A stretch of DNA of 64,000 bases from Myotis daubentonii (Eukaryota > Chordata > Mammalia > Chiroptera > Vespertilionidae). The notes below the pieces were generated by a model. The model made no database searches. It was not told where the DNA came from and saw nothing but the letters and a program-made list of their open reading frames with translations. The stretch lies in assembly GCF_963259705.1 (NCBI RefSeq), contig NC_081842.1:89210433-89274432 (forward strand), in the 5' to 3' direction. This document shows positions 15,292-62,275 of this stretch, piece by piece. How positions within the stretch are numbered: position 1 is the first letter of the stretch; every line of letters begins with the position of its first letter. Made by a program: the position numbers and the translations under genes.

Positions 15292-15526
15292 TCCTATATA
15301 ATAAAAACCCAGTGACTGAAATGGCAGAATGACCAGAAATCAGAATGACCATGGCCAGTCCCGCCCTCCAGCGTGACCCCCACCCTGATCAGGGGTGTGG
15401 CTGGCCTGCAAACTGCCTGCGGCCCCTTGCCCCGATAAACCCAGCCCCACAGTGGGAACCCCCACCCCAATCTGGGGCCCCCATCAGGGCAGGCCAGCCA
15501 GCCCTTGCCTGTGCACTGGGCCTCTA
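15292..15526 (+). mobile_element. Left unit of a compound Helitron
   Basis: It begins TCCTATATAATAAAAACC and ends ...CTGTGCACTGGGCCTCTA, directly followed by the TCCTATATAATAAAAGGG of the next unit. At this internal end the hairpin's left arm is absent (only GTGCAC right arm remains) and the final G of CTAG is missing. Its 3' portion ('acagtgggaaccccc') resembles the left units at 51,273-51,909 and 59,461-60,097, implying a shared ancestral junction. The 5' flank is T rather than the usual A. Confidence 0.85.
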
Positions 15527-15977
15527 TCCTATATAATAAAAGGGTGTTATGCAAATTGACCCTAACGGCAGAATGGCCAGAGCAACCACTTAACCAGTCA
15601 CTATGAGGCGTACTGACCACCTCTCAGTTCCTTTCCCTGGCTGACAGGCTCCAATCCTCTGATGGTGAACAGGGAAATGGGGGTGGGTGGTGGGGCAGGG
15701 GATTCAGGTAGCACCAGGCCAAGGCTCCCACCCTGCTGGTTGCCCCACACACAGAGGGTGACCTGTGGTGGGGGTGGGGCCGGTGAGCAAGTGGAAATGG
15801 CTGACCTCTTGGTTCCTTCCCCTGGATGTCTGGCTCGGATTGCCTGATGACAAACGGGGAAGCAGGGGTGGGTGGTAGTGGGGTGCAGGGCTGGCTGCAG
15901 GCAGCTGGGGAAGATGGCTCTGATTACAGGCCAGGCCTAGGGACCATACCCGTGCACAAATTTCATCCACCAGGCCT

Positions 15978-15981
<4 letters not shown>
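15527..15981 (+). mobile_element. Right unit of a compound Helitron
   Basis: Starts TCCTATATAATAAAAGGG, has ATGCAAAT at 15,549-15,556, a GC-rich interior and ends CCAGGCCTCTAG followed by T. The terminal hairpin is decayed: 'gtgcacaaatttcatccac', where the second arm should read GTGCAC. No transposase is encoded. A GT microsatellite starts right after the CTAG. Confidence 0.9.
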
Positions 15982-20893: not shown

Positions 20894-21129
20894 GGAATTT
20901 CCATTATTATCAGGTTTCTTAAGCCATTAAAGAAGACTTCTGGACTACTTTCGCTATTCTCCTATGTAGGTTATAATATTTCTTTAGTTTTCGTTGGTTG
21001 TTGATTTTAATTCTATCTATTTTACATGTTTACATAGAAAGAGTCCGTTATCTTCTAGAATAAACACAATATCACCATAATATGTGCGTAATTAGGTCAG
21101 GACTCTGTATAATAGGCCTCTATCTACAG

Positions 21130-21422
21130 CAGTGGTTCTCAACCTTCCTAATGCCGCGACCCTTTAATACAGTTCCTCATGTTGTGGTGACCCCCAACCA
21201 TAAAATTATTTTCGTTGCTACTTCATAGCTGTAATGTTGCTACTGTTAAGAATCGTAATGTAAATATCTGATATGCAGGATGTATTTTCATTGTTACAAA
21301 TTGAACATAATTAAAGCATAGTGATTAATCACAAAAACATTATGTAAATATATATGTGTTTTTCGATGGTCTTAGGCGATGCCTGTGAAAGGGTCGTTCG
21401 ACCCCCAGGTTGAGAACCGCTG
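21130..21422 (-). mobile_element. SPIN-type hAT MITE, minus orientation
   Basis: Terminal inverted repeats: CAGTGGTTCTCAACCTTCC at the left and ...GGTTGAGAACCGCTG at the right. The interior ('ataaaattattttcgttgct', 'gtgattaatcacaaaaacat') is the wording of non-autonomous SPIN elements. An 8-bp target duplication with two mismatches flanks it: atctacag and atttagag. SPIN elements are known to have been transferred horizontally among distant tetrapods, vesper bats included. No transposase is encoded. Confidence 0.92.
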
Positions 21423-45440: not shown

Positions 45441-45823
45441 TCCCATATAATAAAAGGGTAATATGCAAATTGACCCTAATGGTGGAATGACTGAGAACGA
45501 CCAGTCACTATGACATGCACTGACCACCAGGGGGAAGATGCTTAATGCAGGAGCTGCCCACTGGTGGTCAGTGCACTTCCACAGGGGGAGCTCCGCTCAG
45601 CCACAAGCCAGGCTGTCAGCTGCGAGCGCAGCGGCAATGGTGGGAACCTCTGCTGCCTCCCCAGGACTAAGGATGTCTAACTGAGGCTTAGGCATCACTC
45701 CCTGCAGGAAGAGGGCCTAAGCCAGCAGGTGGACATCCCCTGAGGGGTCCTGGACAGCAAGAGGGCACAGGCCAGGCTGAAGGACGCCCCCAGTGCATGA
45801 ATTTTTGTGCACCGGGCCTCTAG
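45441..45823 (+). mobile_element. HeliBat-type Helitron
   Basis: Starts TCCCATATAATAAAAGGG after A with ATGCAAAT at 45,463-45,470 and 'attgaccctaatggtgg', and ends with the hairpin GTGCATGAATTTTTGTGCAC then CGGGCCTCTAG before T. Both ends are well preserved. The interior includes 'gcactgaccaccaggggga', also found in the elements at 13,247, 49,946 and 61,701. Confidence 0.96.
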
Positions 45824-49945: not shown

Positions 49946-50341
49946 CTAGAGGCCCGATGGATAAAATTCCTGCACTGGGGCGGGCCCTCAACCTGGCCTG
50001 CACCCTCTCAAAGTCTGGGACCCCTCAAGGGATGTCAGACATCCCTCTCGCAGTCTGAGACCCCTTGTTCCTTACTGACCGCCTGCTCACTGGTCCTTAC
50101 TGCTCAGCTCACTGCTCCTTAGTGCTGCCCTGGAGGTGGGAGAGGCTCCTGCCACCGCCCCTGCACTCGCCAGTCCTAAGCCCAGCTTCTGGCTGTGTGA
50201 TACTCTCCCTTTGGGAGCGCATTGACCACCAGGGGGCAGCTCCTGAATTGAACATCTGTCCCCTGGTGGTCAGTGTGTGTCAAAGTGACTGGTCGTTTCA
50301 CCATTTGGTCTATTTGCATAGTAGCCTTTAATTATATAAGA
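49946..50341 (-). mobile_element. HeliBat-type Helitron, first unit of a three-unit array
   Basis: On the minus strand it begins TCTTATATAATTAAAGGC with ATGCAAAT (plus 50,312-50,319 reversed) and ends GTGCAGGAATTTTATCCATCGGGCCTCTAG-like: a decayed hairpin, then CTAG, then T. Its 5' TC is in direct contact with the CTAG of the next element (50,342), so the two form a head-to-tail array without host bases between them. Confidence 0.93.
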
Positions 50342-51272
50342 CTAGAGGCCCGGTGCACAAAAATTTGTGCACTCGGGGAGGGAGGGGGGTTTCCGGGGGG
50401 GAGTGGGGGTCCCTCAGCTCGGCCTGTGCCCACTCGCAGTCTGGGACCCCTCGGGAGATAACGACCTGCTGGCTTAGGCCTGCTCCCGGGTGGCAGAGGG
50501 CAGGCCCAATCCCTAGGTGCAGCCCCTGGTCGGGCTCAGAGCAGGGCCGATTGGGGAGTTGGGGCGCTGCCCCCTGTCATGCACAGAGCAGGGAAGATCA
50601 GGAGGTTGCGATGCCACCCTCAGTCACGCTCAGGGTAGGGCTTAATGGGGGGTTGGGGCATCGCCCCCTGTCACACTCAAGGCAGGGTCGATGGGGAGGT
50701 TGCGGCGCCACCCCCTATCACACGCAGAGCAGGGCCAATCAGGGGGTTGGGGTGCTGCCCCCTGTCACGCTCAGAGCAGGGCCCGTCAGGGGGGTTGGGG
50801 CTCCGTACCCTGTCACGCACATAGCAGGGTCAATCAGGGGGTTGGGAAGCTCCCCCCTGTCACGCACAGAGCAGGGCCCATCAGGGGGTTGGGGAGCTCC
50901 CCCCTGTCACTCACAGAGCAGGACTGATCAGGAGGTTGAGGAGCTCCCCCCTGTCACTCACAGAGTAGGGCCAATAGGGGATTTGGGGCACCGCCCCCTG
51001 TCACACACAGTGCAGGGCCGATAATGGGGTTGGGGAGCTCACCCCTATCAGGCACAGAGCAGGGCTGATCAGGAGGTTGGGGCACCTTCCCCTGTCACGA
51101 ACAGAGCAGGGCGGATAGGGAGGTTGTGGCCCTGCCACCGTCACACACAGAGCCTCAGGGTGATCAGGGGGTTTGGGCGCTGCCCCCTGTCATGCTAATC
51201 CCAGTGCCGGGACGCCTCTCAGCTCCTCTGATCCCGGTGCTGGGAGGCATATTACCCTTTTACTATATAGGA
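50342..51272 (-). mobile_element. Compound Helitron copy A, right unit with 47-bp minisatellite
   Basis: Minus strand: starts TCCTATATAGTAAAAGGG, passes through a 47-bp repeat array (about 50,530-51,200) and ends with an intact hairpin GTGCACAAATTTTTGTGCAC then CGGGCCTCTAG. Its 5' start is fused directly to the truncated CTA end of the left unit at 51,273. The interior is strongly G-rich on the plus strand. The antisense frame is open for 223 codons (50,353-51,024 plus) only because the repeat lacks stops. Confidence 0.9.
50530..51200. repeat. 47-bp minisatellite (about 14 units), copy A
   Basis: The word gcaggg or gtaggg recurs at 50,541, 50,588, 50,635 and 50,682, exactly 47 bp apart, and continues with small changes. 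Units contain 'ggttggggagctcccccctg', including the palindrome GGGGAGCTCCCC in several. The same unit builds the array in copy B. Confidence 0.93.
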
Positions 51273-51909
51273 TAGAGGCCTGGTGCACAGGTTGGGGCCG
51301 GCTGGTTTGCCCTGAAGGGTGACCTGGATCAGGGTGGGGGTCCCCGCTAGGGTGCCTGGCCAGCCTGGATGAGGGGATGATGGCTGTTTGCAGCTGGTCA
51401 CACACCCTTCAGGGTGGGGGTCCCCACTGGGCTGCCTGGCCAGTCTGGGTGAGGGGCTGAGGGCTGTTTTCATGCTGGCGGGTTACTGAAGCTCCCAACT
51501 GCTCCTTTTTTTCTTTTCTTTTTTATTCTGGGCCAGCTTTAGCTCTGGCTCCAGCTCTATCTAACTTATACCTGAAAGCAGGTATCTGGTTTGTTTGGGT
51601 TCTATAATCGAAACACTGTATCAACTCCAGCTATGAGATCCTGGCTCACTGAAAGCAGGTTTCTGGGGTTTTGTTTAGCGTCTATATTTGTTACAAAGTT
51701 TCAAACTGCAGGCTCAGAGGCCGGCAAGGCAGGCGGGGAACGTTGGAGTCCTCCGTCACTGAAGCAAGCAAGCCTCATGTTAGCTTCAAGCTGTCTGGCT
51801 GCCGGCCGCTATCTTTGCTGGCAGTTAATTTGCATATCGCCCTGATTAGCCAATGGGAAGGGTAGCAGATGTAGGTCTAATTACCATGTTTCTCTTTTAT
51901 TAGATAGGA
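51273..51909 (-). mobile_element. Compound Helitron copy A, left unit
   Basis: Minus strand: starts TCCTATCTAATAAAAGAG after A, has CCCATTGGCTAATCAGG and ATGCAAAT (plus 51,828-51,835 reversed), a YY1-like AAGATAGCGGC (51,805-51,815 reversed, one change from consensus), GC-rich and then A-rich text, and ends TGTGCACCAGGCCTCTA without the final G or the left hairpin arm. It is closely similar to 59,461-60,097. Confidence 0.9.
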
Positions 51910-59460: not shown

Positions 59461-60097
59461 TCCTATCTAATAAAAGAGAAACATGGTAATTGGCATATGA
59501 CCGCTACCCTTCCCATTGGCTAATCAGGGTGATATGCAAATTAACTGCCAGCCAAGATGGCGGCCGGCAGCCAGGCAGCTTGAAACTAACATGAGGCTTG
59601 CTTGCTTCAGTGATGGAAGACTTCAACGTTCCCCGCCTGCCTTCCAGCCTCTGAGCCTGCAGTTTGAACATTGTAACAAATTAGGAAGCGAAACAAAACC
59701 CCAGAAACCTGCTTTCAGCGAGCCTGGGATCTCAGGGCTGGAGTTGATACAGAGTTACGATTATAGAACTGAAACAAACCAGATACCTACTTTCAGCAGC
59801 TGAGGCCTCAGAGCTGGAGCCAAGCCTCAGAGCTAAAGCTGGCCCAGAATAAAAAAGAAAGAAGAAAAAAGGAGCGGTTGGGAGTTCAGTCCCAGCCTGA
59901 AAACAGCTCTCAGCCCCTCACCCAGACTGGCCAGCCACCCCAGTGGAGACCCCCACCCTGAAGGGTGTGTGACCAGCTGCAAACAGCCATCATCCCCTCA
60001 TCCAGGCTGGCCAGGCACCCCAGTGGGGACCCCCACCCTGATCCAGGACACCCTTCAGGGCAAACGAGCCAGCCCCCACCCATGCACCAGGCCTCTA
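59461..60097 (+). mobile_element. Compound Helitron copy B, left unit
   Basis: Starts TCCTATCTAATAAAAGAG after A. Promoter-like words follow: inverted CCAAT box (ATTGG, 59,515-59,519), octamer ATGCAAAT (59,534-59,541) and YY1-type AAGATGGCGGC (59,554-59,564). A partly duplicated segment (two 'acctgctttcagc/acctactttcagc' phrases about 70 bp apart) and an A-rich tract follow. The internal end CATGCACCAGGCCTCTA lacks the left hairpin arm and the final G. No transposase and no convincing captured coding exon. Confidence 0.92.
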
Positions 60098-61083
60098 TTC
60101 TATATTGTAAAAGGGTAATATGCCTCCCAGCACAGGGATCAGCGTGACAGGGGGCAGCACCCAAACCCCCTGATCGCCCTGCGACTCTGTGTGTGAGACA
60201 GAGGGCGGGGCGACAACCTCCCTATGGGCCCTGCTCTGTTCCTGACAGGGGAAAGTGCCCCAACCCCCTGATCGGCCCTGCTCTGTGCCTGATAGTGGGG
60301 GAGCTCCCCAACCCCCTGGTCGCCCTGCGGCTCTGTGTGTGACAGGGTGCGGCACCCCAACCCCCCCACCCCAAGGGCCCTGCTCTGTGTGTGATGGGGT
60401 AGAGCCATAACCTCTCCATAGGCCCTGCCCTGAGTGTGACACTGGCGGCGCCCCTACCCCCTGATCGGCCCTGCTCTGTGCCTGATAGTAGGGGAGCTCC
60501 CCAACCCCCTGGTCGCTCTGCGGCTCTGTGTGTGACAGGGTGCGGCACCCCAACCCCCCCACCCCAAGGGCCCTGCTCTGTGTGTGATGGGGTAGAGCCA
60601 TAACCTCTCCATAGGCCCTGCCCTGAGTGTGACACTGGCGGCGCCCCTACCCCCTGATCGGCCCTGCTCTGTGCGTGACAGGGGGGAGCTCCCCAACCCC
60701 CTGATGGGCCCTGCTCTGTGCGTGACAGGGGGTGGCGCCGCAACCTCCCCATCGACCCTGCCTTGAATGTGACAGGGGGCGGTGCCCCAACAACCCCCCA
60801 ATCGGCCCTACACTGAGCGTGACTGAGGGTGGCATCGCAACCTCCCAATCCGCCCTGGTCTGTGCATGACAGGGGGCGGCACCCCAACTCCCCAATCATC
60901 CCTGCTCTGAGCCCGACCAGGGGCTGCACCTAGGGATTAGGCCTGCCCTCTGCCACCTGGGAGCAGGCCTAAGCCAGCAGGTCGTTATCTCCTGAGGGGT
61001 CCCAGACTGCGAGAGGGCACAGGCCGGGCTGAGGGACACCCCTCCCCGCCGAGTGCACAAATTTTTGTGCACTGGGCCTCTAG
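60098..61083 (+). mobile_element. Compound Helitron copy B, right unit with minisatellite
   Basis: Starts TTCTATATTGTAAAAGGG, directly fused to the left unit, then 'taatatgcctcccagcacag', a long 47-bp repeat array, a 'cacctgggagcaggcctaag' segment, and an intact terminal hairpin GTGCACAAATTTTTGTGCAC then TGGGCCTCTAG before T. The 235-codon minus-strand frame at 60,222-60,929 comes from the array. Confidence 0.93.
60133..60925. repeat. 47-bp minisatellite with 193-bp higher-order duplication, copy B
   Basis: Unit type CTGATCGGCCCTGCTCTGTG plus GACAGGGGGCGGCGCCCCAACCCC. A four-unit block of 193 bp at 60,268-60,460 is repeated at 60,461-60,653, and I see only two differences between the blocks. 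Copy A lacks this block duplication. Confidence 0.93.
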
Positions 61084-61700: not shown

Positions 61701-62275
61701 TCCTATATAATAAAAGGGTAATACACAAATAGATTGAATGGCAGAACAATCGAACAACCAGCCAAAGCGTAATATGCTCATGATATGCTAAGACTGCTCA
61801 ACCACTCGCTATGACATGCACTGACCACCAGGGGGCAGATGCTCTGACCAGTAGGTTAGCTTGCTGCTGGGGCCTGGCCAATCGGGACTGAGTGAGATGG
61901 GCCGGACATGCCCTGGAGCCCTCCTGCGGTCCTTCCCCAGCCGGATCATGCACTGGTGGGGTCCCTCAGCCTGGCCCATACACTCTCGCAATCCGGAACC
62001 CCTCAGTGGATGTTGGGGAGCCAGTTTCAGCCCTATCCCGCAGGCCACTTGCTTTGGGAGGGTGCCAGATGAAGGGCTCAAGGCTGGCAAGCACTGCTGT
62101 GGCAGCATGATGGGACTGATTGGGCGTGAGCCTGTGGCAGGCACAATGGGGCTGGGATAAGTGGGAGCAGCAGGGAGGAGCTGCAGGTGGCTTTGGACTG
62201 TGGGATTCGTCCCGATCCCTGAAGGCCATCCAGAGGGACCCCACCCATGCACAAATTCGTGCACCAGGCCTCTAG
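61701..62275 (+). mobile_element. HeliBat-type Helitron
   Basis: Starts TCCTATATAATAAAAGGG after A; 'actgaccaccagggggcag' in the 5' third; ends TGCACAAATTCGTGCA then CCAGGCCTCTAG before T. At 575 bp it is the longest simple Helitron here. The 151-codon minus-strand frame (61,809-62,264) has no recognisable domain and lies in GC-rich filler. Confidence 0.95.

Follow-up and report, generated by a model that had tools for sequence, protein, structure and literature searches.

A large compound Helitron family in Myotis daubentonii with a degenerate terminator at its internal junction

In Helraiser, a reconstructed bat Helitron, the 3' hairpin acts as the stop signal: once it is deleted, at least 36% of events capture downstream sequence, compared to about 11.7% when it is present (PMC4778049 section 11). 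In Myotis, new 3' ends have been traced to adjacent insertion, to deletion or mutation, and to bypass (39 of 395 copies; PMC4778049 section 12). For the FoHelis of Fusarium, the section on composite elements proposes that several 5' ends came to share one 3' end through self-insertion (PMC5148889 section 16). Here, we describe a family from Myotis daubentonii in which two different Helitron units are joined head to tail at an internal 3' end that lacks its left hairpin arm and its final G.

Structure of the compound copies in the window

The window (the whole 64,000-bp stretch analyzed here; C4:89,210,433-89,274,432, within a 2.13-Gb genome) is rich in Helitron ends of the Helibat kind. Two of its elements, copy A (51909-50342, minus strand) and copy B (59461-61083, plus strand), are each made up of two units that differ in sequence. 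Unit 1 measures 637 bp in both copies (A: 51273..51909, minus; B: 59461..60097, plus) and begins behind a host A with the Helibat-type start TCCTATCT (5' end of copy A: TCCTATCTAATAAAAG). Unit 2 is of a long type, measuring 931 bp in A (50342..51272, minus), where it begins at the junction itself, and 986 bp in B (60098..61083, plus), and it ends with a hairpin and CTAG (a CTRR-type end) in front of a host T, placing both compounds between A and T. When the last 45 nt of each end were folded as single-stranded DNA and compared to shuffles (z), the outer terminators of A (50342..50386, minus; GTGCACAAATTTTTGTGCAC hairpin and CTAG) and B (61039..61083, plus) folded strongly (z -7.07 and -6.74, respectively), in agreement with a preliminary description of this DNA that had credited both outer ends with a full hairpin and CTAG. 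Tandem repeats of 47 bp lie within unit 2 (A: 50537..51192, minus, 13.9 copies; B: 60144..60893, plus, 15.6 copies), and an 80-bp repeat (1.9 copies) lies within unit 1 (51329..51478, minus, in A; the same in B at 59892-60041). Over the 47-bp units of B, there is also a 193-bp higher-order repeat (60257-60751; 2.6 copies, 93% matches) that is absent as such in A.

The alignment of A with B contains 1,359 identities, 147 mismatches, and 205 gap positions (90% identity at aligned bases; 92% in unit 1 and 89% in unit 2), and the match ends at the outer boundaries, save for 12 bases on the left and a common T on the right. The flanks of the two copies are unrelated and show no obvious target-site duplication beyond A and T, as judged from the flanks themselves. 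The two copies represent a single compound. Units of this size, 0.5-1.2 kb, leave no room for the 1,496-aa RepHel transposase, and the family looks non-autonomous.

The internal junction lies at 51,273/51,272 in A (minus; ...TGTGCACCAGGCCTCTA/TCCTATATAGTAAAAG), at 60,097/60,098 in B (plus; ...ATGCACCAGGCCTCTA/TTCTATATTGTAAAAG), and at 15,526/15,527 in a third element, locus C (plus; ...TGTGCACTGGGCCTCTA/TCCTATATAATAAAAG). All three junctions were found at the bases where the preliminary description had placed them, and the first unit ends GGCCTCTA at each, which in the 637-bp unit 1 reads (G/A)TGCACCAGGCCTCTA, with unit 2 adjoining without a gap. The right hairpin arm, GTGCAC (ATGCAC in B), is present; the left arm and the final G are missing at A, B, and C, as had been claimed, and a Helitron 5' end runs from the next base. 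The TC-type start that had been reported to follow is present in A and C, but B starts with TT. The dead internal 3' ends (A: 51273..51317, minus; B: 60053..60097, plus) fold at shuffle level (z +0.08 in A, +0.66 in B, and +0.87 in C). The solo ends used for comparison fold weakly (45823: z -0.79; 62275: z -1.07).

Directly behind copy A lies another Helitron (49946..50341, minus), making a run of three units. The joint between them (CTAG/TCTTATATAATTAAAG) keeps the hairpin and the G and is an ordinary tandem insertion at A/T before the older element's own start; it serves as an internal control for the odd junction, which lies 931 bp from it.

Locus C (15292-15981, plus) is a distant relative of the A/B compound. 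The last ~150 bp of its 235-bp unit 1 (15292..15526, plus; preceded by T instead of A) are akin to the A/B unit 1 (72%), and its 455-bp second unit (15527..15981, plus) is a different one that keeps CTAG at the end of a decayed hairpin region (z +0.56). The three loci of the preliminary description are all fused junctions, yet they do not represent three independent events, but one family (A and B) and a relative (C). Given that C joins a related unit-1 end to a different second unit, a single founder is not certain.

Among the solo Helitrons of the window, 45441..45823 (plus) resembles unit 2 in its 5' end and last ~118 bp (80% at the 3' part) and is, from sequence resemblance, a candidate relative of unit 2's parent. 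In a second solo element (61701-62275, plus), the inner part (query 246-313) matches the 3' regions of other Helitrons in opposite orientation, as if the element carried an inverted Helitron fragment. A junction look-alike at 21114-21150, with AGGCCTCTAT (21114-21123) followed by CTACAGCAGTGGTTCTCAACCTTCC, was rejected as a fourth junction because no Helitron start comes after it; CTACAGCAGTGGTTCTCAACCTTCC resembles a hAT transposon end.

Copies and insertion sites across the genome

To survey the family genome-wide, the junction 16-mer GGCCTCTATCCTATAT was counted, with the reversed pattern as a control. It occurs 13,900 times exactly (6,881 and 7,019 by strand), compared to about one occurrence expected by chance from the base composition of the window and none for the control, and a chance origin of the junction was rejected. 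If ~13,900 copies average 1.3 kb, they comprise ~0.85% of the genome. An Rfam search of the window returned no matches. Three scans of viral contigs gave 1, 0, and 6 exact matches, which were taken as chance (for the single match of the first scan, no Helitron is visible in the 231 bases of L001), and two scans of a genome contig collection gave none. The 16-base 5' end has no occurrence in the literature searched, and Helibat is not mentioned in PMC4971623.

We fetched 40 junction loci as 6-kb pieces (L016-L055); these are 40 of the first 42 listed places on contig C1 and not a random sample. The left hairpin arm is missing in 40/40 loci, and the unit-1 end is recognizably common to nearly all of them (L020 has a different upstream stretch). 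Based on its first bases, unit 2 is long in 18 loci, short in 21, and unclassified in one (L054). Unit-1 starts could be placed in 34 of the 40 loci, preceded by A in 29, G in three, and T in two, and outer ends in 36, followed by T in 34 and A in two. Flanks were compared among the 33 compounds whose two ends could both be placed (A, B, and 31 of the fetched loci). Edge matches were found in none of 528 pairs on the left and in two of 528 on the right, where the matching flanks begin with another Helitron-like start; interspersed repeats shared elsewhere in the flanks are common. The concern raised in the preliminary description, that the junction might exist only as segmental duplicates with the same flanks, was not borne out, since the count and flank comparison suggested there yielded 13,900 junction copies and, among the 33 compounds compared, left flanks that all differ at the insertion edge. 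Segmental duplication as the source of the copies was rejected, based on the unrelated flanks of A and B and the lack of left-edge matches. The fetched compounds stem from one kind of element that inserted independently at each site, and the whole pair, with the same outer ends, recurs at unrelated sites as a mobile unit.

Two of the fetched loci have further features. L021 (G000:C1:1579164-1585164) holds two long-type compounds that are separated by ~2.4 kb and oppositely oriented, an arrangement like that of A and B. In L037 (about 1814-900, minus), a Helitron directly behind the compound has the ~80-bp repeats of unit 1 and a CTAG end behind TGCACGAATTTTGTTCAC, and it is a candidate relative of unit 1's parent.

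The 3' end of unit 1 was counted genome-wide with the tag CTTCAGGGCAAACCAGC: 8,480 ends continue with TCCTATAT, 2,263 with T and a base other than C, and 100 with G, a tally that leaves out ends followed by TC and an otherwise altered start. Within the second group, 1,996 go on as CTATA and are compounds with one altered base (55 T, 6 A, and 6 G in the 67 strings inspected). Because copy B carries T at this base, it looks like a member of a sublineage in which the internal start changed from TC to TT, and this sublineage with a damaged start seems to have multiplied. Ten of the G cases were fetched and all run into a Helitron-like start; eight are the same compound with a T-to-G change, and two (L056 and L059) differ. 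Unit 2 certainly comes next in 10,476 of the 10,843 counted ends (96.6%), with 367 not assigned either way. No left arm was found in the 100 G-followed ends (inspected over 45-46 nt each), nor was a solo unit 1 with an intact hairpin found among these copies. The long-type internal start lies behind CTCTA in 5,401 cases and behind an A preceded by a non-T base in 158, the latter counted with a pattern that is two bases longer at the 3' end and misses solos behind TA; these 158 starts may be mutated compounds or true solos. We read the counts to mean that neither internal end is used often.

Ordinary tandem junctions provide the contrast. Junctions with both hairpin arms number 1,531 with the G and nine without it, showing that head-to-tail insertions that keep the terminator are common and that the G-less, arm-less junction is essentially one family. 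Intact internal hairpins, which the preliminary description had named as evidence that would speak against it, are nearly absent from this family (9 vs. 13,900, with 0/100 left arms among the G-followed unit-1 ends). A first unit that keeps CTAG and the hairpin is present at the joint of A with its neighbor and at the 1,531 other junctions, and is found neither in A, B, or C nor in any of the 40 fetched loci. The figure of 1,531 is a pattern count alone and may include amplified compounds. Of 32 further starts of the same type in the fetched loci and the window, six lie behind CTAG, five behind CTA (A, B, and C being three of them), and the remaining 21 behind other sequence.

At non-CpG sites, copies of the long lineage diverge from the column majority by an average of 5.0% in unit 1 (18 copies) and 3.9% in the last 260 bp of unit 2 (19 copies); in the short lineage, the averages are 9.5% for unit 1 (median 6.5%; 15 copies) and 4.9% for unit 2 (18 copies). 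Per-copy divergences of the two units correlate with r about 0.00 in the long (17 copies) and 0.43 in the short lineage (13 copies); these numbers are too few to speak against co-insertion, yet they lend it no support.

Proposed origin of the fused pair

The preliminary description had proposed that an ancestral unit lost its terminator, that transposition read through into a second unit, and that the fused pair then spread as one element. Joint spread is well supported, and terminator loss as its cause is likely. In our preferred account, which we regard as probable, the A/B family derives from two older Helitrons that were fused with the unit 1 terminator already dead in the founder, and read-through gave rise to ~14,000 copies from this one fusion. 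The body of the element would thus be two older Helitrons joined head to tail, the first of which would have been without its left hairpin arm, loop, and final G from the start. Rolling-circle copying from the 5' end of unit 1 would pass the junction and stop at the hairpin and CTAG of unit 2, and the pair would thus insert as a single piece between A and T. The copies, on the order of 14,000 and all from one founding fusion, would fall into two main lineages distinguished by their unit 2, which is long and has 47-bp repeats in one and is short, mostly about 470 bp, in the other. A compound that starts at unit 1, passes a dead end, and stops at unit 2 is what the hairpin-stop model predicts. 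We infer that the dead terminator is the reason why the pair moves together and that there was one founder.

A possible route to the loss of the arm lies in the hairpin itself. GTGCAC is its own reverse complement, and therefore the two arms are also direct repeats, of which one may have been deleted together with the loop (12 bp in the 62275 end), leaving a single arm. After such a collapse, the CACCC upstream of the left arm and the CAGGCCTCTA downstream of the right arm would remain, as they do in unit 1. The intact end at 62275 reads CACCC-ATGCAC-AAATTC-GTGCAC-CAGGCCTCTAG, and removal of the loop and one repeat (12 bp) turns it into CACCCATGCACCAGGCCTCTAG, identical to the unit-1 end of B plus G. 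Among 64 intact-type ends in the fetched loci and the window, six have ACCC before the left arm and one (62275) collapses exactly. The match hints weakly at such a collapse, its context being C-rich and no intact unit-1 parent having been found. Loss of the final G could reflect either the deletion of one base or the landing of unit 2 between CTA and G. In the account of Helraiser insertions, 46 of 1,751 lie outside AT dinucleotides, with TT, AC, and AA given as the most prominent sites and AG not named in the section concerned (PMC4778049 section 10).

Only tentatively do we suggest a wider reading, in which terminator collapse might be a built-in route to bigger Helitrons. Self-complementary arms are direct repeats, so the stop would be easily deleted, and an element that lost it beside another Helitron would grow into a larger one, having two starts but a single stop; in this genome, one such fusion would have outgrown more than 1,500 ordinary tandem pairs to become a major family.

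The strongest competing explanation, although unlikely, is that fusion came first with the terminator still working, that the pair spread by occasional bypass, and that the arm and G decayed early, making their loss a by-product. Approximately 11.7% of Helraiser events bypass intact hairpins (PMC4778049 section 11) and ordinary tandem pairs are common; given that assays show intact hairpins being passed over too, the lost terminator may be an effect and not the cause. However, the same decayed end in 40/40 loci implies that the loss preceded most of the amplification, and hairpin-bearing junctions without G number just nine.

It is less probable still that the tail of unit 1 represents the final 16 bases of a Helitron remnant, truncated at its 5' end, that lay beside the insertion and was later carried along by read-through. 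De novo 3' ends beside 5'-truncated Helitrons have been reported (PMC4778049 section 12), and the lack of a hairpin-bearing unit 1 parent among the 100 G-ended copies fits this explanation. Against it, the CACCC before the lone arm also stands before the left arm at 62275, which is unexpected for a random breakpoint, although in a C-rich context this counts for little, and the loss of the final G would still be needed.

Independent tandem insertions, with each locus being a separate landing at A/T before the TC of another element and the pairs never having moved jointly, are very improbable as an explanation. Such insertions are real and frequent, as the Helitron behind A and the 1,531 hairpin- and G-bearing junctions demonstrate, and they have been published for Myotis (PMC4778049 section 12). 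They keep the G and the hairpin, however, whereas the arm-less, G-less junction is the same in 40/40 loci with a unit-1 end common to nearly all, and for A and B they are contradicted by a match that spans the whole compound. Least credible is an imprecise joint of a Helitron circle or multimer closed without G: Helraiser circles join CTAG to TC and, in the passages on circles in PMC5876387, about half of the unselected ones have aberrant junctions, but units 1 and 2 differ and hence do not come from a multimer of one circle, and the loss of the arm would be left unexplained.

Comparison with described Helitrons

Both tandem Helitrons in bats and read-through following loss of the hairpin have been described before. 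A literature search, run without the bat-specific 2007 and 2014 papers, turned up no large compound family of apparently single origin and no compound Helitrons of such scale in which the internal terminator is dead. The hairpin-terminator model, as published, is based on work in human cells with a reconstructed element and on individual exemplars from nature. The 13,900 exact junctions of this natural family add a fossil of the predicted event, seen in 40/40 fetched loci, with ordinary tandems as a built-in control. The family allows the link of terminator loss to the emergence of composite Helitrons to be counted within a single genome and tested across the vesper bats.

Like the Helibat Helitrons (Helibat1/Helraiser and HelibatN; PMC4778049), the compound has 5'-TC and CTAG-3' ends, a hairpin ~11 nt before the 3' end, and A/T insertion, but a second start lies within it, immediately after the disabled internal end. 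An existing HelibatN consensus may already contain this junction, and the family warns that a fused element may hide inside a repeat consensus. Tandem Helitrons of bats and plants (PMC4778049 section 12 and the tandem elements treated in PMC5876387) are likewise arranged head to tail without a spacer; their first unit keeps the hairpin and CTAG, whereas that of the compound has lost both and the pair itself is mobile. The composite FoHelis of Fusarium resemble it in combining two or more 5' ends with only one functional 3' end, but as described in the section on composites (PMC5148889 section 16), the 5' portion that is duplicated in them usually measures <200 bp and they occur in few copies, compared to two whole, different units and ~14,000 junction copies in the compound. 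Further precedents are the hairpin deletion in Helraiser and the natural bypass exemplar (PMC4778049 sections 11-12), in which a 3' end without its palindrome is passed and a downstream end is used. For natural bypass, the published record is a single exemplar in a set of 395 copies from three subfamilies, whereas in Myotis daubentonii the bypassed end is fixed in a family.
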